A stretch of DNA of 12,411 bases, taken from Rubrobacteraceae bacterium (lineage in GTDB: Bacteria; Actinomycetota; Rubrobacteria; Rubrobacterales; Rubrobacteraceae). This document shows, piece by piece, positions 636-12,411 of this stretch; the first letter of the stretch is position 1, and each line of letters begins with the position of its first letter. A program made the position numbers and the translations under genes. A model generated the notes under the pieces. It ran no database searches, was not told where the DNA came from, and saw nothing but the letters and a program-made list of their open reading frames with translations. Location: contig JACCSM010000193.1 in assembly GCA_013698525.1 (NCBI GenBank), positions 1-12,411 on the forward strand. Direction: 5' to 3'.

Positions 636-1388
636 ATGCAACGAGGCTCGCGGAGGGACCGACGAGAGCAACCTCAGGGAGGCGCCTGGGCTGTGTTGAC
701 ACGGGTTCTGGCAGCGCTCGGCGTTGGGGTGTGGTGCAGTTTCATCCTGTTGGTGTCGGTAGTGTTCGTGATCGACAGGGGACTGGCCGATGTAGGCATA
801 GTCTGGGTGGCCGTCCTTGGCATCGGGGTGGCGGCTCCCGTACTCCTCTTGAGGCAGATCAACCGCGCCATAGCGGCGCACGAAGAGTCCCGTCGTTCCA
901 TCCCTGATACGAGGGAGAAGGAGAAAGAGCTCCTCGGCGCCCTGGAGGAGCACGACAAGCTCACCCCCGCCACAGCCGCGATGCGGACCTCGCTCACCGT
1001 TGATGAAGCGTCGAAGATGCTCCATACGCTGGCCCGCAAAGGACACCTTGAACTGCGAACGGAGGAAGGCACCGTAGCCTACGCCCTGAACGGGCGCGAC
1101 AGGCAAGGGCTGCCGGGAGAGGACTCCACGTCTCCCTCAGGCGCAGAGAATGGCGAAGCACCGGGCCGGGCCGCTGCGCATGACCATCTCGAAGACCCGT
1201 TGAGCGAACGTGAGATCGAGGTGCTGAGCCTCCTCGCCTCGGGCAAGACCAACTCAGAGGTAGCCGGAGATCTCTTCGTCTCCGTGGGCACCGTCAAGAG
1301 CCACACAGGCAACATCTACCGCAAACTCGGCGCAAGGAACCGCACCGAGGCCCTCACCAGGGCGCGCGAGCTCGGGCTGATTCGGTAG
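636..1388 (+). CDS. Membrane-anchored LuxR-family transcriptional regulator
   Basis: A 250-residue protein. Residues 22-46 and 53-73 are two hydrophobic helices forming a membrane hairpin. Residues 75-105 are charged and helical. Residues about 97-152 look like a winged-helix fold (LTPATAAM, LTVDEASKMLHTLARKGHLEL, then a strand ending VAYAL). A low-complexity linker follows, and residues 187-250 are a classic LuxR/GerE helix-turn-helix (LSEREIEVLSLLASGKTNSE, then GTVKSHTGNIYRKLGA). No receiver or ligand-binding sensor domain is present, so any signal must be read by the membrane hairpin or the middle domain. The ATG at 636 has GGTGGAG five bases upstream; a GTG at 693, just before the first helix, is an alternative start. 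It stands alone, with a weak promoter upstream. The regulator assignment is secure; its target genes are unknown. Confidence 0.88.
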   Translation: MQRGSRRDRREQPQGGAWAVLTRVLAALGVGVWCSFILLVSVVFVIDRGLADVGIVWVAVLGIGVAAPVLLLRQINRAIAAHEESRRSIPDTREKEKELLGALEEHDKLTPATAAMRTSLTVDEASKMLHTLARKGHLELRTEEGTVAYALNGRDRQGLPGEDSTSPSGAENGEAPGRAAAHDHLEDPLSEREIEVLSLLASGKTNSEVAGDLFVSVGTVKSHTGNIYRKLGARNRTEALTRARELGLIR

Positions 1389-1591: not shown

Positions 1592-2056
1592 ATGGCCCGT
1601 GTTGTAGAGACGCCGAGAAATCCATCGCGAGTCGAGGCAACCGTTACGCCACCGAAACGAGGGACGACGATGACCAGGCGATCCGTCCCTGTTCGTCTGG
1701 CCCGAATCGGCTACGCTCTGCTCTCCTCGGTCTTCGTCGCCTGCGTCCTGGTCCAGGTGTTCTTCGCCGGCATGGGAGCGTTCGGGGCGGACTGGGCCTG
1801 GCACCTGACCTTCGCACACTTCCTGGAGCTGCCGCCTCTGCTGATGATACCCATGGCTTTCGTCGGACGTTTGCCGTGGGCGTTGAGGCTGCTGCCCTTC
1901 GGTCTGGTGGTCCTGGTCGGCGCGCAGTACGCGTTCGCCAACGCGGCCGTGCCGACCGCGGCTTTGCACCCGGTGAACGCGCTAGTGATCTTCTGGATGA
2001 GCCTCTTCATCGCCAGGCGGGCTTGGGCCGCCGTGTACGGGCAGGGGAAGGGGTGA
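1592..2056 (+). CDS. DUF6220-type four-helix membrane protein
   Basis: A 154-residue protein with four predicted membrane helices at about residues 37-60, 73-91, 97-117 and 125-142. Conserved-looking features are QVFFAG (55-60) in helix 1, histidines 71 and 76 before and within helix 2, and LHPVNA (125-130) at the start of helix 4. This pattern matches my recollection of the actinobacterial DUF6220 family, which has no known function. The start at 1592 has AAGGAGG eight bases upstream. An in-frame ATG at 1670 also has a good site (GAGGGA, 5-base spacing) and would remove 26 polar N-terminal residues, so the start is ambiguous. The stop is 7 bases before the multicopper oxidase start, so the two are probably co-translated. 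A role in supplying electrons, haem or copper to the oxidase is only a guess. Confidence 0.72.
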   Translation: MARVVETPRNPSRVEATVTPPKRGTTMTRRSVPVRLARIGYALLSSVFVACVLVQVFFAGMGAFGADWAWHLTFAHFLELPPLLMIPMAFVGRLPWALRLLPFGLVVLVGAQYAFANAAVPTAALHPVNALVIFWMSLFIARRAWAAVYGQGKG

Positions 2057-2063
2057 TCCATTC

Positions 2064-3647
2064 GTGAATATCTCGCGTGGGGAGTTCTTGCGGCTGGGGC
2101 TCGCGGGCGCGGTGACGCTCGCCCTCCCTTTCGGCGCGTCCGCTTGTTCCGGATCTAGCGAGGGCTCGACGGGGACGCTGTTGCAGAGCAAGGCGAAGCT
2201 GCCCGAGCCGTTTATGGTGCCGTTGCCGATGCCCCCGGTGCTGGAGCCCGCACGCTCCGACGCGAACACCGACTATTACGAGCTGGTTCAAAAGGTCGGC
2301 AAGGCGGAGATCCTGCCTGGTCTCGAGACGGAGGTCTGGGGCTACGGTGGGATCTTCCCCGGCCCTACCGTGGAGGCCAGGAGCGGGAGGCGGACCGTAA
2401 TCCGGCAGTGGAACGAGTTACCGGTGCCCGTCTCTGTCCACCTGCACGGCGGCAGGACGCCGCCAGGGAGCGACGGCTACCCCACGGACCTGATCCTACC
2501 CAAAGGGAGCGAGCACGGCGCTTCCGGGCACGCGAGCCACGACTCGGGGCATCATGATCCAGCGGGCCAGCACGCCCATCTCTTCAAGGACTACACCTAT
2601 CCGAACGAGCAACGCAGCGCCACGCTCTGGTACCATGACCACCGCATGGACTTCACGGGACCCCAGGGCTGGCGGGGACTCGCCGGGTTTCACATCATCC
2701 GCGACGACGAAGAGGACGCCCTGCCCCTCCCGAAGGGCGAGAAAGACGTTCCGCTCATGATCTGCGACCGCTCTTTTGATGAGGACGGCTCGTTCCTCTA
2801 CCCTTCCCTGGATCCCTCGCTGATGGGTGAGCCTGGCGTCGAGGACGATTACATGGACGGCGTCCTCGGAGACACCATCCTGGTCAACGGATCTCCGTGG
2901 CCGGTGATGGAGGTCTCGAACACGAAGTACCGCTTCCGCATCCTCAACGCCTCCAACGCCCGCCGCTACGAGCTCGCCCTGGAGCCGGAAAACAATACCT
3001 CGTTCGTCCAGGTCGGAAGCGACGGGGGTCTGCTCGGCGCTCCGATCCACCACCGCACGATCCGGATCGCGCAAGCGGAGCGCTTCGACGTGGTCATAGA
3101 TTTCTCGAAGTACGATGTCGGCACGGAGGTCACGCTAAAGAACCGAATGGGCGAGGGCAAGACTGCAAACGTGATGCGCTTCCGCATCACCCGCAAAGAG
3201 AAAGACGAAAGCGCCGTACCAAGGCGGCTTGCGTACATGGCGGAGTTCGAAGGGCTCGAGGAATCTCGCGCCAGGCGCACGCGCGAGTTCCGATTTACCC
3301 GGGTTGGTGACGAGGGCCGGGTGATGTGGGGTATCAATGGCGAGCCGTTCGACCCGGAGCGTATGGCCGCCAGCCCGAAGTTGGGGTCTACCGAGGTCTG
3401 GCACCTGAGGGCAGCCCCCGCTGCGCACCCGATCCACCTTCACCTGGTCCACTTCAAGGTGCTCTCCCGCAACGGCAGGAGACCCTTGCCAACGGACGCC
3501 GGCTGGAAGGACACCGTGGACCTGACCTCGGGCGAGGAGGCACGTGTGCTCGTCCGTTTCGACGGCTACCGAGGCCGCTATGTCTTCCACTGTCACAACC
3601 TCGAACACGAGGACATGATGATGATGGCCAACTTCGAGGTCGTATGA
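2064..3647 (+). CDS. Exported multicopper oxidase, CotA/bilirubin oxidase type
   Basis: A 527-residue oxidase that would couple one-electron oxidation of phenols, bilirubin-like compounds or metal ions to four-electron reduction of O2 to water. All four copper motifs are intact: HLH (126-128), WYHDH (189-193), HPIHLH (455-460) and HCHNLEHEDM (509-518), supplying the type 1 and the trinuclear type 2/3 sites with Met518 as axial ligand. HLHGG and YPTDL fit the CotA/PhsA subgroup. The N-terminus is a signal peptide: SRGEFLRLG resembles a Tat motif but has Arg-Gly instead of Arg-Arg, and ASAC at 25-28 could be a lipobox. Residues 148-172 form a histidine-rich insertion with seven His. The start is a GTG, 7 bases after the DUF6220 stop, with GGGGAAGGGG upstream. 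The natural substrate cannot be read from the sequence. Confidence 0.93.
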   Translation: MNISRGEFLRLGLAGAVTLALPFGASACSGSSEGSTGTLLQSKAKLPEPFMVPLPMPPVLEPARSDANTDYYELVQKVGKAEILPGLETEVWGYGGIFPGPTVEARSGRRTVIRQWNELPVPVSVHLHGGRTPPGSDGYPTDLILPKGSEHGASGHASHDSGHHDPAGQHAHLFKDYTYPNEQRSATLWYHDHRMDFTGPQGWRGLAGFHIIRDDEEDALPLPKGEKDVPLMICDRSFDEDGSFLYPSLDPSLMGEPGVEDDYMDGVLGDTILVNGSPWPVMEVSNTKYRFRILNASNARRYELALEPENNTSFVQVGSDGGLLGAPIHHRTIRIAQAERFDVVIDFSKYDVGTEVTLKNRMGEGKTANVMRFRITRKEKDESAVPRRLAYMAEFEGLEESRARRTREFRFTRVGDEGRVMWGINGEPFDPERMAASPKLGSTEVWHLRAAPAAHPIHLHLVHFKVLSRNGRRPLPTDAGWKDTVDLTSGEEARVLVRFDGYRGRYVFHCHNLEHEDMMMMANFEVV

Positions 3648-5039: not shown

Positions 5040-6905
5040 TTATCGTCCGAGCTCGCGCAGGTTCTCCCACAGGATGTAGAGTCCTACGGCCAGGACAGCG
5101 AGGATGATGACCCCCCAGAAGTAGTGTTCGAGGATGACCAGGGCGCCCACTATCGCCAACGCGACGTTGACGCTGACTATGAACCTGGTTAGTCGCCTCC
5201 TGAAACCGGCCTCGATGAACGCGAACATGGCGATGGCGAAGACGAGCGCGGAGAGCAGGTGCTGCCTCTGGTAGGCGATGATGAGGATGAGCGTCACGAG
5301 CACGACCGCGATGCTGATCGAGGCCCACAGCTGCGCCACCCTGCCGGCGTGGGTCTCAGCCTCGGAGACGGGGCGCGCGGGGTGCACGATGTGCGCGCGG
5401 GCGGGAGGACGCTCGCCGTCTTTCAAGCGTTCGGCATGATCCTTCAAGGATTCGGCGAGGACTTCGTCGTCGGACAGTTGTGCACGCAGCGTCTCGACTT
5501 CTTTGGATAGCTCTTCGATGTGCCGCATCTGGTTCTCGTGGAGCTTGCTCAGGTGGGACTGGTCGCGCGTGGCTTCGGCGTCCATGCCCAGAGCCTTCAG
5601 CCTGCTGCTCTTCTCCAGCAGTTCGGAGCGGAGGAGATCCCGGCGTTCTTCGATCTCCGCCTGACGCCCGGTGATGACGCCCAATTGCTCCGTCCTGGTC
5701 GGCACCTTGTCGAGTCCTGCCCAGCCCACGGGGTCGAACCACTCGCGGCTTATGGTCTTGTCGCGGTTGTACATCGGCCCCGCCGGGGCGTCCTCGCCCT
5801 CGAAGGGATCCTGGGTGTAGAGACCCCACAGTCCCCGATACCTCGAGACCCACGATGGCAACGGGTTCATGAGGCGTGGGGGGTCCCACTCCATGTCCTG
5901 TCCTGGTCCGACCGACAGCCCGTCCCCGCGCCCGTAATCCACGAAGGGGATGGTGAACTGTTCGTAGAGCTTCTCCCCGTAGTCCACGTCGGCGTACTGG
6001 CGCAGCGTTACGTACCAGAACCGCCGCGCGACCCTCCTGACCACGGCGAACGCCCGCGGCAGGGGGAAAGCGAGCTCGGTCAGGTACTCGCCCCGGGAGT
6101 AACGGGTCGCGTGCGAGCCGGCGCAGACGTACGCCACAGGATGCTCGCCGATCTTCCCCAGCTCCGGGTCGTCCCACCGGCGCCTGAGGTCGTCGCCGGT
6201 CTCCTCGTGCGCGGCGTAGGCCACCCACTCAGGCCTTACCTCGCCAGACTCCGATTCCGAGAGGAACACGAATATCTTCTCCCAGTCGGCCTCGTGGTCG
6301 TTGGCGCCAAAGACGTTGCTCCTCCAGTCGTTGAACGCGTAGAAGAGCCAGTACCGCAAGACGATCCAACCGTCCTGCCTAACCACGTGCCCATGGTACC
6401 TGAGGTGTTCCTCCTGCTCCATGAAGCGGCCGTACAGGACGCGCCCCCCCTCCACGTCTCCGCCGGGAACCCTGCCCCTGGCCAAGAGCACCAACGAGAA
6501 GAGCGCGTCCGCCAGCCTCGAAATGTAGCCGACGCGCGCGAGGCGTCCCCTGCCAGCCCGGAAAGTCTCCCTGGGCCAATCGGGGTTCGTGTGCGAGCGC
6601 CTCGCCCGCCGGCGCGCCCGGCGACCTTGATTCTCGTCTTCCTTGGGGTTGGGGATCTTGAGGTAGTGCACGGCGCCGGTGGTGTCCTCCGGCTGCTGGG
6701 CTAGCCTCTCTAGGGTGAGCTCTCCGGCCGGAACTACGCAGAGGGCGTCCTCGCCCGGACGCCGGACCCAGAGGCTGCAGGCGTCCACGTAGGGCTCACA
6801 GTCCATCGGGTAGAACCACTCGCCCTTCGTGAACCGGATCACGGGCTCGAAGCGGCGCAGCAGTGCCTCAGCGGTCCTCGCGTCCACGCTCTCCTCATTC
6901 GCCAT
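5040..6905 (-). CDS. Vps62-like domain protein with coiled coil and four C-terminal membrane helices
   Basis: A 621-residue protein of unknown function. Residues about 15-45 (RRFEPVIRFTKGEWFYP) and 180-275 (LRYWLFYAFNDW, HEADWEK at 204-210, PVAYVCAGSHATRY at 256-269) resemble the Vps62-related family, whose signature is a YWFFY-type strand, an H-E-x-D-W-E motif and a GSHA motif. Residues 95-103 are a basic tract. Residues about 410-497 are a charged heptad-rich coiled coil. Four hydrophobic helices follow at about 525-545, 550-568, 574-592 and 596-614. The N-terminal domain is thus tethered to the membrane by its tail. The start overlaps the stop of the upstream membrane protein by 11 bases, implying a co-translated pair. 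Vps62-type domains are poorly characterised; a metal-dependent or pore-forming role is speculation. Confidence 0.75.
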   Translation of the reverse strand: MANEESVDARTAEALLRRFEPVIRFTKGEWFYPMDCEPYVDACSLWVRRPGEDALCVVPAGELTLERLAQQPEDTTGAVHYLKIPNPKEDENQGRRARRRARRSHTNPDWPRETFRAGRGRLARVGYISRLADALFSLVLLARGRVPGGDVEGGRVLYGRFMEQEEHLRYHGHVVRQDGWIVLRYWLFYAFNDWRSNVFGANDHEADWEKIFVFLSESESGEVRPEWVAYAAHEETGDDLRRRWDDPELGKIGEHPVAYVCAGSHATRYSRGEYLTELAFPLPRAFAVVRRVARRFWYVTLRQYADVDYGEKLYEQFTIPFVDYGRGDGLSVGPGQDMEWDPPRLMNPLPSWVSRYRGLWGLYTQDPFEGEDAPAGPMYNRDKTISREWFDPVGWAGLDKVPTRTEQLGVITGRQAEIEERRDLLRSELLEKSSRLKALGMDAEATRDQSHLSKLHENQMRHIEELSKEVETLRAQLSDDEVLAESLKDHAERLKDGERPPARAHIVHPARPVSEAETHAGRVAQLWASISIAVVLVTLILIIAYQRQHLLSALVFAIAMFAFIEAGFRRRLTRFIVSVNVALAIVGALVILEHYFWGVIILAVLAVGLYILWENLRELGR

Positions 6906-7368
6906 GTGCGATCTCCGGTCTAGCCTCCGCCGGCGTCAGCCGTCTGCGGTGGACCACCGCCCGCACGCTGCGGGAGTTGAGGAGCAGGATCATCAAGATG
7001 CAGTAGGCGATTATGGGGTAGGCGAACCACGGACGCGAGTCGCCGTAGAAAAACAGGCAGGACAGCATGATCAGGGCCTGCGCGACCGAAGCCAGCATCC
7101 ACCCGCGGCGCCTGAGCAGCACGAAGCCGAGGCCCGCCAGGAGCAACAGGACCACGGGAGCGAAAAAATAGACCGTGAACAGGATCGCCCGTTCGAAATC
7201 CTTCACCACGGACTTGTCAGTGGTTTGGAGCCGAATCTGGCCCGGCTTGTTGGAAAGATTTACTAGCGCGTCCCAGTCGATGCTGGCGAACAACCAGACG
7301 CCGATCCCCACCATCGCGACGACCTGCAGAAGAAGCAACACACCAAGCAGCCGCGCCTGTCGGTACAA
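6895..7368 (-). CDS. Small four-helix membrane protein
   Basis: A 157-residue protein with predicted membrane helices at about residues 7-29, 61-85, 90-108 and 114-131. Between helices 1 and 2 is a 30-residue segment that is probably extracytoplasmic (DWDALVNLSNKPGQIRLQTT). The C-terminal tail is basic. No known family is recognised. The start is a TTG: GGAGGG lies six bases upstream (7375-7380), and no better in-frame start exists nearby. The gene overlaps the Vps62-like gene by 11 bases, so the two products probably work together in the membrane. Direct repeats at 7438-7465 lie about 70 bases upstream. Confidence 0.75.
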   Translation of the reverse strand: MYRQARLLGVLLLLQVVAMVGIGVWLFASIDWDALVNLSNKPGQIRLQTTDKSVVKDFERAILFTVYFFAPVVLLLLAGLGFVLLRRRGWMLASVAQALIMLSCLFFYGDSRPWFAYPIIAYCILMILLLNSRSVRAVVHRRRLTPAEARPEIAHGE

Positions 7369-7527: not shown

Positions 7528-8667
7528 CTAGAGTCTGTACAGGCGCGTCGCGTTGCCGCGCAGCACGCTCTCGCCGGCGGCTTCGGCCTCGGGGAGGTCC
7601 AGCTCTCCGTGCGCCACCATCTCCCCTAGCGCCTCGCCGAGCACGCGCCTGCCGTCTATGGCGCTCATCCAGTGGAGTTCGGGCGCTCCTATACCATCCG
7701 AGCTGTACATGAGCTTCGAACTTGGGGCGACGCCGAGCGCGGCCCGGGTGAAGGAGAGCATCTCGCCGTAGCCAAGCAGGGGGATGCCGTAGGAGAGGTC
7801 CAGGTAAGCGTTCTCGTAGACGGCGGCCAGGTAGCCGCCCTGCCGGGTGTACGGGTAGCACTCGTGTAGCAGCACGACGGGCATACCGCGGTAGTCGGGA
7901 CGTTGGAGCACCGGGCGCAGGTAGAGCGGGTTGCCGAGCAGGAGGTCGGTGTCGGCGTCCCCGTAGCCGACGTGGAACTGGACGGGAATCTCCTGCCGAG
8001 ACGCCTGCGCGAACGTGACGTGCAGCAGGGTGTCGAGGAGCGGCTTGTGGACGAGGCGTGCAGAACCTGCTCCGGCGGTCCGCCTGTATTCGTGGAAGGA
8101 CTCTTCGGCCTCCTCCCGCGGCCACTCCCGAATGTCCAGGCCCGTCCGGTAGGCGGCGATGCTCTTGAGCGCCACGTAGCCCTGGCCTCGAACGTCGTCC
8201 AGCGCGGCCGCGAGTGCCTCCCGCATTTCCTCTAAAGAATCGTACTCGGCCAGCAAATCCTCCATCAGGACCTCGAGCCGCAGCATCGGCTCCGCACGGC
8301 AGTCCCCAATCTGCCCGAGCTCGGGTACAGGAAACACTTCTTCGGGCGGCGGAAAGCCCGTATCGAGAAGGAGGGCCTCGACGTTCGCGGCGAGCAGCAA
8401 TTCGTGTGTTAGTTCTCGCCCGTTCTTCTCGGTACGGGCTGCGAACACGGCTTCCTCTTCCGGCTCGCAACCGAGGAAGTCGGCCAGCGTGCGGATGAGG
8501 CGTCGGTAGAAGGACGTAGTGGTGACGTGGTCGCGCGGCATGCTGGGGTCGGCGGACTCGGTAAAGGCCCGCCTCCAGCCCGTAACGTATTCGAAGGCCT
8601 GATCCTGCGTTACACCGTGGCAGTGGTTATCCACGGCGGGGACCTGAGTAAGATCTATGACTTCCAT
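7528..8667 (-). CDS. FluG-type amidohydrolase (amidohydrolase 2 family)
   Basis: A 379-residue TIM-barrel metal-dependent hydrolase. The metal ligands expected for the superfamily are visible: His15 and His17 in DNHCHG, Lys168 in ALKSIAAYRTGL, His232 in VQFHVGYGD, His268 in VVLLHECYPYTRQGGYLAA and Asp324 in MYSSDG. The KS..YR.GL and LHE.YPY features and the GNA.RLY end fit the domain fused in front of a glutamine synthetase domain in fungal FluG and plant NodGS. Here the two are separate genes of one operon. It starts 13 bases after the M20 gene stop, with GGAGG six bases before the ATG, and is the last gene of the operon. It probably hydrolyses an amide or a gamma-glutamyl product linked to the ligase; the substrate is unknown. 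Confidence 0.85.
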   Translation of the reverse strand: MEVIDLTQVPAVDNHCHGVTQDQAFEYVTGWRRAFTESADPSMPRDHVTTTSFYRRLIRTLADFLGCEPEEEAVFAARTEKNGRELTHELLLAANVEALLLDTGFPPPEEVFPVPELGQIGDCRAEPMLRLEVLMEDLLAEYDSLEEMREALAAALDDVRGQGYVALKSIAAYRTGLDIREWPREEAEESFHEYRRTAGAGSARLVHKPLLDTLLHVTFAQASRQEIPVQFHVGYGDADTDLLLGNPLYLRPVLQRPDYRGMPVVLLHECYPYTRQGGYLAAVYENAYLDLSYGIPLLGYGEMLSFTRAALGVAPSSKLMYSSDGIGAPELHWMSAIDGRRVLGEALGEMVAHGELDLPEAEAAGESVLRGNATRLYRL

Positions 8668-8680
8668 GAGCCACCTCCGT

Positions 8681-9874
8681 TCACAGCATCACGTCCCCAC
8701 CAGACGCAGCGACAAAGGCTAACGCCTGAGCCCGGGCGACCGCCCACACCGCTTCACTGGTCGGCAGGAACCGCGGGTGGTGGAGCGGTACGTTCGGAGT
8801 GCCCGGGGCACCCTCGAGACCCACGAACAGCATGAGCGTCGGTGACGTTAGGCCGTAGAAGCCGAAGTCGTCGGATCCGCACGACCTCATCGCCGGCGCC
8901 AGCTCGAAGCCGGCCTCGGGTAATAGCGAGCGCGCCGCCTGGGCGAGGGCCGGGTCGTTGACCGTCGCCGGCTCCCCCTCGGTCACCTCCACCCTGGCGG
9001 CGCAGCCGTGCGCCCTCGCCGTGTTTTCGACGATCTCGCAGGCCATCTTTCGGAGCGATTCGCGATCCTCGGGATCCAAGGCGCGCAGCGTGCCGCCGGC
9101 CTCGGCAGCGCCCGGTATTACGTTCTCCGCCGACCCCGCACGCACCCAGCCGACGCTGAAGACCGCAGCGTGCATCGGGCCCAGCCGGCGGCTTATCAGC
9201 GACTGGAGCGTGACAACTGCGTGGGAGAGGGCGAGTATGGGGTCGTGTGCGCGATGCGGATAGGCCCCGTGGCCGCCGGACCCCTCGACGACTATGCGCA
9301 GGTTGTCTGAGGAGGCGTTTACCGGTCCGGCCTCGACGCTCACCGAGCCCCACGGAACCTCAGGGTGCACGTGCGCAGCCACGACCGCACCCGTTCCCTC
9401 CGCCAGAGCCCCTTCTTTGACGACCAGATCAGCCCCCGAAGGATAGGCCTCCTCGCTCGGCTGAAAGAGGGCGGCGAGGGGCTTCGGTAGAGAGCCTTCG
9501 ATCTGCCCAGCGGCCAGGAAGAGGGCCACGAGGGCGGCCATGTGGACATCGTGGCCGCAGGCATGCATGAGACCGTTCTTGGCGGCGAAGGGCGAGCCCG
9601 TCTCCTCCTGGATGGGCAGGGCGTCGAGCTCGGCCCGCACCGCGACGGCCTTCCCTGGCGGTCCGACCTGCGCCAGGAGGCCCGTGCGGACAACGCGCTC
9701 CACGCCCCTGATACCAAGTGCTTCCGCGACGAGGCCGGAGGTAGCGCGCTCCTCGTGGCTCGGCTCTGGGCTAGCGTGCAGCTGCTCGCGCAGCATGACG
9801 GCTCGCGGAAGGTCCTCTTCCAGGGAATGGAGGAGCCTCCTGAGGAGGTCAACAGACACGCAGGTACCGCTCAC
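8681..9874 (-). CDS. M20D-family amidohydrolase (IAA-amino acid/hippurate hydrolase type)
   Basis: A 397-residue cytosolic metallohydrolase; related enzymes cut N-acyl amino acids, hippurate or indole-acetyl amino acids. The binuclear metal site is intact: Cys106 and His108 in HACGHDVHMA, the Glu pair 141-142 in FQPSEEA, His168 in AAHVHPEVP and His365/366 in LHHPRF. The lid/dimerisation domain starts near residue 185 (SSDNLRIVVEGSGGHGAYPH). A GTG at 9874 is taken as start and overlaps the stop of the broken glutamine synthetase gene by 26 bases; a GTG five codons later (9859) would cut this to 11 bases. It sits 13 bases before the FluG-type amidohydrolase. The physiological substrate is unknown; the context suggests an amide formed or met by the operon's ligase. 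Confidence 0.9.
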   Translation of the reverse strand: MSGTCVSVDLLRRLLHSLEEDLPRAVMLREQLHASPEPSHEERATSGLVAEALGIRGVERVVRTGLLAQVGPPGKAVAVRAELDALPIQEETGSPFAAKNGLMHACGHDVHMAALVALFLAAGQIEGSLPKPLAALFQPSEEAYPSGADLVVKEGALAEGTGAVVAAHVHPEVPWGSVSVEAGPVNASSDNLRIVVEGSGGHGAYPHRAHDPILALSHAVVTLQSLISRRLGPMHAAVFSVGWVRAGSAENVIPGAAEAGGTLRALDPEDRESLRKMACEIVENTARAHGCAARVEVTEGEPATVNDPALAQAARSLLPEAGFELAPAMRSCGSDDFGFYGLTSPTLMLFVGLEGAPGTPNVPLHHPRFLPTSEAVWAVARAQALAFVAASGGDVML

Positions 9875-10673
9875 AGGCTTCCGATGGCTCTACTCCTTCA
9901 AGGAGATCTATCTCGTTCCTCTTCACGCTGAGATAGCAGTCCCAGAGGTCGGACGAGAACCAGGACCGGACGACCTCGTCCGTCTCGAGGGCTCCGAGGG
10001 CTTCGTCCAGCGAGCCAGGAAAAGCCCACTGATACCCAACCTCCGTCGTTCCTCTTCGTCTAGCCCGGTGGGATCCTCCTCGACCAGAGTCGGCTCGGGG
10101 AGTTCGTCCTGGAGCCCGCGCAGGCCAGCGAGGACGAGCACGGCGAGGACCAGGTGAGGGCACGCTGCCGCGTCGGGGGCCCTGAACTCGAGGTTGATCT
10201 GCCGCGCGGGGTCGCCGCCTGACAGTTCTACTGTAGGCGGGATCCGGATGGCCGTCTCCCTGTTGCGCTCGCCCAGGCAACCGAAGCCCGCGCTCCAGAA
10301 GTGCGGCACGAGGCGCAGGTAAGAGACGACGCTCGGGGCGGTGAAGGCGCAGAGGGCCGGCAGGTGTTCGAGGATGCCCGCCGCTCGGTGTTGACGGCGT
10401 CGCAGAGGAAGAAGTGAAGGGCTGAGGCATCGTCCCACAGATCGACGCGCACGCGGGTATCCCTGTCGGGGAGGAGACGGAGGTCGCCGAGCGACCCGAA
10501 GGGGTTCGGCTCGGCGATGGGTCCGAAGGGCGTAAGCGCCTGATCCGCCGGCACCCACCCTACGCCCGCCGCGAACCGCTCGTCGAGTTCCGCGGCCGGG
10601 ACCGACCCCGGTTCAGACCCGAGATGTCGCTGTGGAGGAAGGCGACGAGCTCCTCACCCCGCACGATACTCAC
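9849..10673 (-). pseudogene. Broken glutamine synthetase-like gene (internal deletion and frame changes)
   Basis: A start GTG (10673) shares GTGA with the preceding stop. The reading then moves through three frames: SIVRGEELVAFLHSDISGL (10670-10614), then AAELDERFAAGVGWVPADQ through LHFFLCDAVNTE (about 10595-10384), then AGILEHLPALCAFTAPS through RRRLGIS (about 10378-10030), and finally PGSLDEALGALE to the stop at 9849. The first parts match the N-terminal beta-grasp region of a glutamine synthetase and the last the C-terminal third. The intervening catalytic core, seen in the intact paralogue as HAEVGQGNLEL and NGHHLHVSL, is absent, with the joint near 10378-10388. The other two frame changes lie near 10591-10600 and at an A4 run (T4 on the coding strand) at 10020-10023. 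Loss of the core makes a working ligase very unlikely, even if small frame changes were sequencing errors. Confidence 0.82.
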
Positions 10674-11485
10674 CGCCCCCAGTCGCGGTCTGGGGAGCCG
10701 TTGTTCCAGTGGCGCAACTCGAAACCCGCCTCCCCCAGCCGCACGGTAAGGCTCTCGGCCGCGGATACCTCGCAGGCGCAGAGCACCCCGCCTTCGTGCC
10801 CGTCGTCCCGTTCGAGCGCTGCCGCAACCGCCACGACCGGCTGCAGATGATAGCCGTCCCAGCCTAGCTGCGGGTAGGTGTCGCGGAGGACGACGAGGGC
10901 ACCGCCGGGACCACCCACGCACGCCGCAATCGTCAGGAAGTGCCCGCAGTCCCAGTCTGGCGGCGGCGTCTCCACCGACCGCCCGAGCAAGTAGTCGAGC
11001 AGGAGCCTTGCAGGAGGGTGCGAGCCCCACAAGTGTCGCGTGCGCAGGTTGGCGATCAGGACGCACTCGGGCACCTCTGCGGCGGCGATCTCGACGAGCG
11101 AGACAACCGTGTCGGAGCTCCACGGTCCCGCTACGGGAACCACGACCAGCGCATCCCCGGAGAGCTCCTCGATTGTACCTGCGACCCCCGTCGCTGACGT
11201 CCCCGCGGAAGCCACGTCGGGCGAGATTGGGATAGTTGCCTCGTAATCTGCCCGGGGTGAGGCGCCCGGTGGCAGCCATGACGCAGGGTGCCCCTCCGCC
11301 AGGGTCGTCCCTGCCCGGAGCGCGACCTCCTCCTGGCTTGCGGCGTGGCCGAAGGCTGAGAGGATCAGCGCTCCCCAGAACGCGCCGCACAACTGGTCTT
11401 TCTGCGGCATCGACCTTTCGTGCAGCAGGGCGAAGTCCCCGGGACCGGGGAGGATCTCACCCGCTCCGGCTAGTGGACCTATCAC
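10670..11485 (-). CDS. DUF6885-like protein, putative papain/C39-fold cysteine hydrolase
   Basis: A 271-residue soluble protein. I recall this family, with its PQKD.LCG..W.AL motif, as DUF6885, found next to glutamine synthetase genes in actinobacteria; no function is established. The residues are laid out like a C39-type papain fold: Gln28 and Cys33 in PQKDQLCGAFWGALIL, then His182 in CGHFLTIAA and Asp202 in VVLRDTYPQ, spaced as the oxyanion Gln, nucleophile Cys, His and Asp of that fold. Whether it hydrolyses amides, transfers acyl groups or is inactive is unknown. There is no signal peptide. The GTG start at 11485 is fixed by AAAGGAGG six bases upstream. It is 56 bases behind the intact glutamine synthetase gene, with a hairpin between, and overlaps the broken copy by four bases. 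Confidence 0.72.
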   Translation of the reverse strand: MIGPLAGAGEILPGPGDFALLHERSMPQKDQLCGAFWGALILSAFGHAASQEEVALRAGTTLAEGHPASWLPPGASPRADYEATIPISPDVASAGTSATGVAGTIEELSGDALVVVPVAGPWSSDTVVSLVEIAAAEVPECVLIANLRTRHLWGSHPPARLLLDYLLGRSVETPPPDWDCGHFLTIAACVGGPGGALVVLRDTYPQLGWDGYHLQPVVAVAAALERDDGHEGGVLCACEVSAAESLTVRLGEAGFELRHWNNGSPDRDWGR

Positions 11486-11491
11486 GCAGCG

Positions 11492-11499
11492 CCTCCTTT
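11492..11499 (-). promoter_or_regulatory. Strong ribosome binding site deciding a GTG start
   Basis: AAAGGAGG on the - strand, six bases before the GTG at 11485. It is a near-perfect anti-16S match and sets the start of the DUF6885-like gene, which should be translated strongly despite the GTG. Confidence 0.75.
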
Positions 11500-11507
11500 C
11501 AGTCGGC

Positions 11508-11539
11508 GGGCTTCAGGTATTTGCTGATGCCTGTAGCCC
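11508..11539 (-). repeat. Post-stop hairpin repeat, copy 2
   Basis: GGGCTTCAGG (11508-11517) and CCTGTAGCCC (11530-11539) pair with one mismatch around a 12-base loop. It lies two bases beyond the stop codon of the glutamine synthetase gene, inside the operon. The core GGCTnCAGG/CCTGTAGCC matches the hairpin at 443-485. It could reduce read-through or stabilise the upstream message. Confidence 0.55.
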
Positions 11540-11541
11540 AT

Positions 11542-12411
11542 CTAGTAGAGCATTGCGGCCGTGGCCGCCACCTCCTCGGGCGGAAGCTCTCTGGCAGTGG
11601 CGGCTTGCGCCCGGGCGACGGCCACGTGGGTGCGCACGAGTGGTTCGCCCAACGCCTCTATAAGGACGGCGTCTCGTTCCAGTGCATCCAGGGCCTCGTC
11701 CGGGGAGGCGGGGAGTGGACGGATGCCCCTGGAGGCACGTTCCTCTTCGCTGAGCGTGGCAGGGTCGACCATCGTCGGCTCCCCTGGGTCAAGACCGCGA
11801 TCCATCCCGTCCATCCCGGCGGCGAGGACCGCGGCGAGGGCCAGGTAGGGGTTTGAGGTGACGTCGACCGGCTTGAGCTCGACGTTGGCGGTCGCTGACT
11901 CCCTGCCGGCCACGGGCGAGGCGAGCCGCACGGCGGCCTCCCTGTTGTCCAGGCCGTAAGCGGCGTAGGCCGAGGCCCACATGCCTGGGGCGAGCCGCTG
12001 GTAGGAGTTGGGGCTCGGGGCGGTAAACGCCATGACGGCGGGCAAATGTTCGAGTATGCCGGCCACGAAGCCCGAGCCTGGGCCGCTCAATGCTCCTGAG
12101 GCGTCGAAAAGCACTGGAGTGTCGCCTTCGTAGAGGCTCACGTGCAGGTGGTGACCATTGCCTGCCCCCTCCAGGTATGGTTTCGGGGCCATCGTGGTCT
12201 GTAGTCCCATCCGGTGTGTCACGCCCCGAACCGTCTCGAGCACCATCACACGCTTGTCCGCCGCGGCTAACGCTTCGTCCTCCCCCACGGAGAGCTCGAG
12301 GTTTCCCTGTCCCACCTCGGCGTGGCACTGCTCGGGACGGATGCCCATCTCCTCCAGCGTCTGTGCCAGCTCGGCGACGAAGTCAGCCGCCGGGGTCAGC
12401 GCGTAGCTCCC
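11542..12411 (-). CDS. Glutamine synthetase-like gamma-glutamyl ligase, FluG/NodGS type (5' end outside window)
   Basis: The C-terminal 289 residues are present; the frame is open to the window edge (GSYALTPAADFVAELAQTLE), so an internal ATG at 12348 is not the start. Glutamine synthetases join glutamate to ammonia with ATP; many actinobacterial paralogues use amines instead. Visible motifs: HAEVGQGNLELS with metal-binding glutamates, NGHHLHVSL (ATP/metal), PNSYQRLAPGMWASAYAAYG, DNREAAVRL and NVELKPVDVTSNPYLALAA. The PG.W..AY...G..NREA and N.E.K..D forms resemble FluG/NodGS rather than classical GlnA. It heads the visible part of the operon. The amine substrate is unknown. Confidence 0.93.
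   Translation of the reverse strand, partial: GSYALTPAADFVAELAQTLEEMGIRPEQCHAEVGQGNLELSVGEDEALAAADKRVMVLETVRGVTHRMGLQTTMAPKPYLEGAGNGHHLHVSLYEGDTPVLFDASGALSGPGSGFVAGILEHLPAVMAFTAPSPNSYQRLAPGMWASAYAAYGLDNREAAVRLASPVAGRESATANVELKPVDVTSNPYLALAAVLAAGMDGMDRGLDPGEPTMVDPATLSEEERASRGIRPLPASPDEALDALERDAVLIEALGEPLVRTHVAVARAQAATARELPPEEVAATAAMLY

Follow-up and report, generated by a model that had tools for sequence, protein, structure and literature searches.

What would a run of genes do that places two glutamine synthetase (GS)-like ligases beside three putative amide hydrolases? The question is raised by a 12,411-nucleotide stretch of DNA from a soil Rubrobacteraceae bacterium (contig JACCSM010000193.1 of assembly GCA_013698525.1; hereafter the window), which is the entire contig 329 of its source genome (G000:C329; 2.98 Mb in 639 contigs, completeness about 80%, contamination 4.4%; nearest named relatives, uncultured Rubrobacteraceae) and which carries, on its minus strand, an operon of ligase A, a protein of the family DUF6885, ligase B, an M20D amidohydrolase and a FluG-type amidohydrolase. 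In our best reading, a DUF6885-ligase B-M20D module lies inside a permease-ligase A-FluG-type module, because each of the two also stands alone in other genomes. The operon probably tags small amines with glutamate and then clips the tag off, and DUF6885 appears to represent a new and widespread type of enzyme that removes such gamma-glutamyl tags. That the operon is made of two gamma-glutamylation modules merged for amine scavenging, with DUF6885 as a papain-fold enzyme cleaving gamma-glutamyl amides, is a proposal to which we give even chances.

The five genes were delimited by open reading frame listing together with Pfam and NCBIfam. Ligase A (11542..12411; Gln-synt_C, E 4e-77) is represented by the C-terminal 289 residues of a GS-like gamma-glutamyl-amine ligase and is followed, after a gap of 56 base pairs (bp), by the DUF6885 protein (10670..11485; 271 residues; PF21819, E 2e-76), a predicted papain-fold cysteine amidase with Q28, C33, H182 and D202 as its site. 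A 4-bp GTG overlap leads into the ligase B pseudogene (about 9852..10673; PA5508-type), which was traced with tblastn pieces against the intact ligase B of locus L009 and by DNA alignment, and whose frame overlaps by 26 bp the gene of the M20D metallo-amidohydrolase (8681..9874; 397 residues; TIGR01891, 259.9 bits against a cut-off of 153.75). The FluG-type (Amidohydro_2) amidohydrolase (7528..8667; 379 residues; Amidohydro_2, E 8e-13; 2QPX, E 6e-48) lies 13 bp further on. The preliminary description of this DNA had given the same co-directional order, families and short spacing, all of which hold, and had taken ligase A to be intact, which it is not: the contig ends inside the gene, at the residue equivalent to 158 of the 446 of a relative, and the 5' part is lost. 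The transporter, regulator and dehydrogenase that it proposed to add upstream are likewise not visible within the window, which ends inside ligase A.

In the relative G006, all five genes are intact and in the order of the window (loci L009 and L024, the latter being record CADCVF010000013, isolate AVDCRST_MAG58), so the run is more than a chance juxtaposition. An APC amino-acid permease (494 residues) stands there directly upstream of ligase A (446 residues), followed by DUF6885 (278), ligase B (440), M20D (405) and the FluG-type amidohydrolase (379), the whole being co-directional with gaps of at most 90 bp or short overlaps. The two modules are also found apart. G019, another genome from this family, carries the permease, ligase A and the FluG-type amidohydrolase (85%, 85% and 79% identity) with nothing between the last two and no DUF6885 match, and DUF6885, ligase B and M20D occur together without a FluG-type match in 11 other loci, mostly from Thermoleophilia (L034-L037, L039, L042, L159, L160, L164-L166). 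Loss of the trio in G019 would give the same picture as insertion of a module. A BBE-like FAD oxidase found upstream in G006 was dropped as a fixed partner, G019 having no match to it.

Both ligases look, from their active-site residues, like gamma-glutamyl-amine ligases and not like GlnA. The position of GlnA Glu327 holds Trp in all four ligase A and all 15 ligase B rows. In a 95-row tree of neighbouring ligases, six groups linked to DUF6885 or FluG were examined, and each of their 69 rows has an aromatic residue there, so that gamma-glutamylation of amines rather than of ammonia is to be expected; E131, E212, E220, H269, R339, R344 and E357 are kept in both, which preserves the ATP, metal and most of the glutamate residues. 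Arg359 is replaced by Lys in ligase A, the Asp50 position is Pro in the three ligase A rows that reach it but acidic in ligase B, as in E. coli PuuA (Glu), and that of Tyr179, where the alignment is gappy, is Pro, Gly or Ala in ligase B and Tyr in ligase A. The best NCBIfam family for both is gamma-glutamylputrescine synthetase (NF045547), with 372 bits for complete ligase A and 300 for ligase B, far under the 650-bit equivalog cut-off; the ligase A fragment, 93% identical to the complete 446-residue copy at L009:9261-10601, also has GGputSyn as its best family, under the cut-off. Ordinary GlnA, a placement that would have spoken against the preliminary description, is rejected for both on these families and residues. 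The match of G006 ligase B to PA5508 (PDB 4HPP) spans the full length (residues 6-440) and scores 463 bits, against 151 bits for the next PDB entry and 214 bits for ligase A with 4HPP. The two proteins have in common the Trp at the Glu327 position, with the difference that ligase B is a pseudogene in the window. The available part of PMC6478659 describes PA5508 as favouring bulky amines over polyamines, and by analogy the substrate of ligase B is probably a bulky monoamine.

The breakage of ligase B in the window, already pointed out from its letters alone, is borne out by comparison with G006. An N-terminal piece (about 10384-10673) and a C-terminal piece (about 9855-10384) remain, the middle being deleted; 839 of 910 aligned bases are equal (92.2%), and the lesions comprise this loss of 496 bp, a smaller deletion of 4 bp and an insertion of 2 bp, with an extra 1-bp difference just ahead of the ligase B start, in the end of the DUF6885 gene. 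In G004, of the same genus, only a 51-residue C-terminal match of ligase B follows an intact DUF6885, and in G008, also of this genus, DUF6885 is intact with no ligase B match beside it, although a copy may lie elsewhere among its 640 contigs. Within this genus, ligase B thus seems to be disappearing, whereas DUF6885 is retained.

DUF6885 itself is very likely a cysteine enzyme with a papain fold, as judged from predicted models, and the earlier guess of a putative cysteine hydrolase is in this respect very likely right. The AlphaFold2 model of the window protein (predicted local distance difference test, pLDDT, 87.2) gave weak Foldseek E-values (best 8e-4), the interpretable titles being papain-like, and a tie in VIA-align between 22OC (14.9) and the primitive phytochelatin synthase Alr0975 (14.4); 22OC is titled 'P210 CD lyase', a title that cannot be interpreted. 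A second model, of a Mycolicibacterium DUF6885 protein with 12 other diverse rows (pLDDT 94.8), placed Alr0975 first (15.6; root-mean-square deviation 2.6 over 172 aligned residues), ahead of 22OC (14.4) and cathepsins (about 10). The Gln-Cys-His-Asp site is kept in every aligned row that spans it: Q28 and C33 in 47/47, H182 in 49/49 and D202 in 49/50 rows from 50 loci, the sole exception (L052) being cut by a contig end. Alr0975 (PDB 2BU3, 6THO) is only 11-15% identical to DUF6885 in the structural alignments and has another gene context, and DUF6885 as phytochelatin synthase proper was discarded, there being no PF05023 match (at E up to 1, PF21819 is the sole family reported); a profile built from 15 DUF6885 sequences likewise matched no solved structure at that threshold. 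Our literature search met DUF6885 in no paper and, with combined queries only, nothing for PF21819; it did not cover Iyer et al. 2009, so an earlier DUF6885-ligase link is possible. The main text of a census of papain-like enzymes (PMC10318531) mentions neither name.

The gene company of this family is what ties it to the ligases. In overlapping sets searched with PF21819 at E up to 0.001, the family is present in 7/60 near relatives (own genome included), 11/396 genomes of the phylum (10 over the Pfam cut-off), 23/399 of the class of Solirubrobacter pratensis and 6/394 of the class of Mycolicibacterium bacteremicum. Named genomes contributed 29 loci, among them those of two cyanobacteria and single records from Chloroflexi and Dormiibacterota, and two Haladaptatus plasmids also had matches. 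A G060 match below the Pfam cut-off and with one internal stop, and a second contig fragment of G214/G441, were excluded, and removal of three duplicates from 53 candidates left 50 loci. Neighbours were counted from tblastn matches, as a simple gene caller merged or mis-called some frames, and the counts are lower bounds, some loci ending sooner at contig edges. A GS-like ligase lies within 150 bp of DUF6885 in 39 of the 50 and within 5 kilobases (kb) in 41. With 114 GS-domain matches in about 71 Mb (18 DUF6885-carrying genomes), the random expectation for the shorter distance is about 0.4% of cases; a binomial figure derived from it takes no account of shared ancestry and is not a real probability. 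The two are always separate frames, no fusion being met among 42 same-strand neighbour pairs tested in 38 loci. An M20 hydrolase is found within 1.5 kb in 22 loci, as two unlike types (the window's M20D type in 16, a more distant one in 6: L040, L043, L044, L121, L122, L167). Eleven loci have an APC permease within 5 kb, 10 have a class III aminotransferase and 4 have a PuuD-like hydrolase; a FluG-type gene lies within 5 kb in 6, 4 of which also have M20 within 1.5 kb. Thus, the full set is seldom together, an outcome that the preliminary description would have counted against itself, whereas its pairs are common.

In the ligase tree (built with IQ-TREE in quick mode, with SH-aLRT as the only support measure; matches shorter than 900 bases or containing a stop left out, window ligase A added by hand), the ligases linked to DUF6885 are spread over several groups, namely those of ligase B, of Rubrobacter ligase A, of Haladaptatus, of actinomycetes (Streptosporangium, Mycolicibacterium, Actinocorallia and others) and one around L041, with further cases at L011, L052 and L177; deep placement is unsure because of long branches (GlnA, PuuA and some others). 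In both Haladaptatus halobius and H. caseinilyticus, ligase, DUF6885 and M20 follow each other with overlaps of 1 bp and 8 bp; next come a permease and an opposite-strand gene for a FluG-type amidohydrolase; an opposite-strand aminotransferase lies between M20 and permease in H. halobius, and a second GS lies 3' in H. caseinilyticus only. L158 reads permease-ligase-DUF6885-ligase-FluG-type, and L045 has a ligase and FluG-type pair 3 kb away on the opposite strand. Among other settings, DUF6885 stands beside Puu-like sets in L041, L051, L168 and L046 (class III aminotransferases, PuuD-like hydrolases, at least two GS-like ligases, and partly also APC permeases and GntR/FCD regulators), and is followed by a class V aminotransferase in L038 (8801-10051) and L170. 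In L038 its surroundings are LIV-type ABC transporter genes, and a ligase B-like gene follows at a distance of 6.6 kb downstream. The cyanobacterial proteins (L031, L033; 39% identity) have the full Gln-Cys-His-Asp set, and no ligase match was found in the surrounding 16.8 kb.

Ligase B homologues on plasmids offer a comparison. They match 593 records; among the 30 listed, 13 had a named gene under the match, and 12 of these loci, all alphaproteobacterial, were read. The ligase family is the same and another hydrolase family replaces DUF6885, which is near none of the 12: an N-formylglutamate amidohydrolase is present in 6 (3 directly downstream, 3 divergent behind a regulator), an isochorismatase-like hydrolase in 9 and M20 in 2 (Roseomonas, S. 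fredii), mostly with LIV-type ABC transporters and RpiR regulators nearby. With alphaproteobacterial queries, N-formylglutamate amidohydrolase was found in 0/50 DUF6885 loci and 0/40 FluG-type loci. These counts fit a picture in which DUF6885 may fill the hydrolase slot held elsewhere by N-formylglutamate amidohydrolase, a family whose member SCO1615 is the proposed gamma-glutamylglycine hydrolase of ethanolamine breakdown (PMC6529630, in the part available). In the Terrarubrum plasmid (L183), the ligase B homologue lies in a 2262-bp gene annotated as a SIS-domain protein, apparently fused behind an RpiR-type regulator.

The assignments of the other two hydrolases, as first described, were upheld. 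The M20D protein, over the TIGR01891 cut-off, carries the motifs HACGHDVH and QPSEE and has YxeP as its best PDB match, followed by an M20 peptidase, ILR1-like and AgaA. The FluG-type protein has 2QPX as its best solved relative (phmmer E 6.4e-48, residues 7-343) and keeps H15, H17, K168, H232, H268 and D324 in all 36 full-length rows of an alignment of 43; these residues we take to be the ligands of the amidohydrolase superfamily (HxH, Lys, two His, Asp). By its sequence it is a member of the FluG-half family, and a position outside the family is not supported; 2QPX is also the template reported for the FluG N-terminus (PMC6478659, available part). The family has 71 matches in 59/396 genomes of the phylum. 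The surroundings of 40 were compared, which are the best 44 of the 71 matches after setting aside the window, G006, one further match and one that shared its stretch with another match. A GS-like ligase is at most 150 bp away in 26 of these loci, at most 500 bp in 30 and at most 5 kb in 37, the remainder being L081 (contig edge), L107 (5.1 kb) and L119; M20 is within 5 kb in 2 and DUF6885 in none. Of the few records read beyond Actinobacteria, a Deinococcus plasmid has the ligase and FluG-type pair side by side, whereas around the match on a Thermomicrobium plasmid no ligase is annotated within 8 kb; a Nonomuraea record carries no annotation. A fusion of the FluG/NodGS type was not found, the two being separate frames in the window, G006 and G019. 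The separate pair is not new, being the usual state in Actinobacteria and already known: the available part of PMC6478659, citing Strong 2003 and Iyer 2009, describes the two FluG halves as corresponding to separate bacterial enzymes, close in bacterial clusters, and the arrangement is also noted in that of PMC5403932.

For the merged operon, we infer the reaction, the order of steps and the substrate from the anatomy of the locus, the gene associations, the conserved active sites and the predicted fold. Module 1 would comprise the APC permease, ligase A and the FluG-type amidohydrolase, and module 2 DUF6885, ligase B and M20D, each bringing an ATP-dependent gamma-glutamyl-amine ligase together with amide hydrolases. 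The ligase would couple the gamma-carboxyl of glutamate to an amine; the DUF6885 cysteine would attack the gamma-glutamyl amide, forming a thioester with the glutamyl part and freeing the (processed) amine first and glutamate after. M20D may cut another amide or N-acyl bond, before or after tagging. Since ligase B is a pseudogene in the source genome, the partner of DUF6885 and M20D there would now be ligase A or a different ligase.

Several observations weigh against this proposal. To our knowledge, no activity has been described for any DUF6885 protein, and the fold leaves the cleaved bond unfixed, because Alr0975 reportedly cuts the Cys-Gly bond of glutathione and not the gamma-glutamyl bond. 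The core module has no oxidase or dehydrogenase, and ligase B is still acidic at the GlnA Asp50 position (Glu in 13, Asp in 2 of 15 rows). No GS-like ligase lies within 5 kb in 9 of the 50 DUF6885 loci, both cyanobacteria among them (L030, L031, L032, L033, L038, L015, L167, L170, L171), L015 being at a contig edge and the ligase of L038 lying 6.6 kb away. PuuD-like amidotransferase-fold hydrolases occur with DUF6885, on the same strand in L041, L051 and L168 and on the opposite one in L046 and L169, which means that DUF6885 does not simply replace PuuD everywhere. The hydrolase contrast (0/50 vs 0/12) is one between phyla, confounded by descent, and was drawn with alphaproteobacterial queries.

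DUF6885 might instead be a transferase which, like phytochelatin synthase and BtrH, takes the gamma-glutamyl group off the ligase product and passes it on to a second amine or a peptide, as part of a small biosynthetic pathway with M20D trimming; this we regard as unlikely. The closest fold is that of phytochelatin synthase, a transpeptidase in plants; the absence of an oxidase from the core module, and the trio often lacking other recognised partners, are in keeping with it, whereas the APC permeases and class III aminotransferases (11/50 and 10/50) fit uptake and breakdown, and the alphaproteobacterial counterparts have N-formylglutamate amidohydrolase. We see equally little chance that the hydrolases act first, M20D and/or DUF6885 freeing the amine from an imported amide or N-acyl compound that the ligase then tags, with the FluG-type enzyme as sole gamma-glutamyl hydrolase. 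The nearness of M20D to N-acyl amino acid hydrolases (ILR1-like, AgaA) and the suggestion, in the available part of PMC6478659, that the amidohydrolase product may feed the ligase agree with such an order; yet DUF6885 adjoins ligases of many lineages, and 44/50 of its loci showed no FluG-type gene within 5 kb (some ending at contig edges), so another gamma-glutamyl hydrolase would be needed there. Mere passive travel of a regulator, protease or dead relative with ligase genes, which the nine ligase-less loci might suggest, is improbable given catalytic residues kept in every copy not cut by contig ends, an adjacency far over the chance level and several separate pairings in the ligase tree.

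Beyond the merged operon, and with less than even confidence, DUF6885 may constitute a so far overlooked class of enzymes that hydrolyse gamma-glutamyl amides, built on a papain fold like that of phytochelatin synthase and repeatedly recruited next to different gamma-glutamyl-amine ligases (Actinobacteria, Chloroflexota, haloarchaea), a further solution to the PuuD step and possibly sharing with phytochelatin synthase an ancestor that acted on gamma-glutamyl compounds.

Of the other genes in the window, three that also lie beside the operon in G006 are regarded as local neighbours. The genes at 5040-6905 (minus strand; a 621-residue protein with no Pfam match over cut-off and, by eye, a coiled coil and C-terminal membrane segments) and 6895-7368 (minus strand; a small membrane protein preceding it) also lie 3' of the FluG-type gene in G006 (91% and 75% identity). 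A multicopper oxidase at 2064-3647 (plus strand; nearest NCBIfam PhsA and CueO, both under cut-off), with the gene of a DUF6220 protein ahead of it (1592-2056, plus strand), has a counterpart 94-95% identical near the operon in G006. As operon partners the two minus-strand genes and the oxidase were rejected, there being no match in the other DUF6885 and FluG-type loci searched with them (L158-L177 apart). At 636-1388 (plus strand), a 250-residue protein has weak holin-X-like and MarR-like matches (below cut-off) and then a clear LuxR DNA-binding domain.

The reading of DUF6885 as a gamma-glutamyl amidase gives an unannotated family a specific, testable biochemical role and a partner and, if true, adds a further type of hydrolase to the metabolism of amines through gamma-glutamyl intermediates, which has been described for polyamines, ethanolamine, aniline and monoamines. 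Fungal FluG controls sporulation, and operons that can also hold FluG-type amidohydrolases, as separate bacterial enzymes each with its own ligase product, offer a direct way into the FluG reaction.

Among the nearest known systems is the SCO6962/SCO6961 pair of Streptomyces coelicolor, a counterpart of fungal FluG in two genes, with a GS-like gamma-glutamyl ligase gene and a FluG-type Amidohydro_2 gene downstream. According to the available parts of PMC5403932 and PMC9397018, SCO6962 is the gamma-glutamylpolyamine synthetase GlnA3, the two genes are likely co-transcribed, and SCO6961 is a polyamine-induced, uncharacterised protein proposed as hydrolase of the gamma-glutamyl route; DUF6885, a second ligase and M20D are not named there for this pair. 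The Puu pathway of E. coli (PuuP, A, D, C, B, E; L120) follows the same logic of permease, gamma-glutamyl ligase and hydrolase; a tblastn search at E 1e-5 of the window and of 20 kb of G006 gave no match to PuuB, PuuC, PuuD or PuuE. PuuD is a class-I amidotransferase-fold enzyme, whereas a papain fold is predicted for DUF6885. The pattern of alternative hydrolases (PuuD, N-formylglutamate amidohydrolase, FluG-type, DUF6885) may help to infer the step taken by unassigned members, and, set beside these systems, the operon described here consists of known parts in a locally new arrangement, together with one uncharacterised family that the findings suggest to be a papain-fold gamma-glutamyl amidase.

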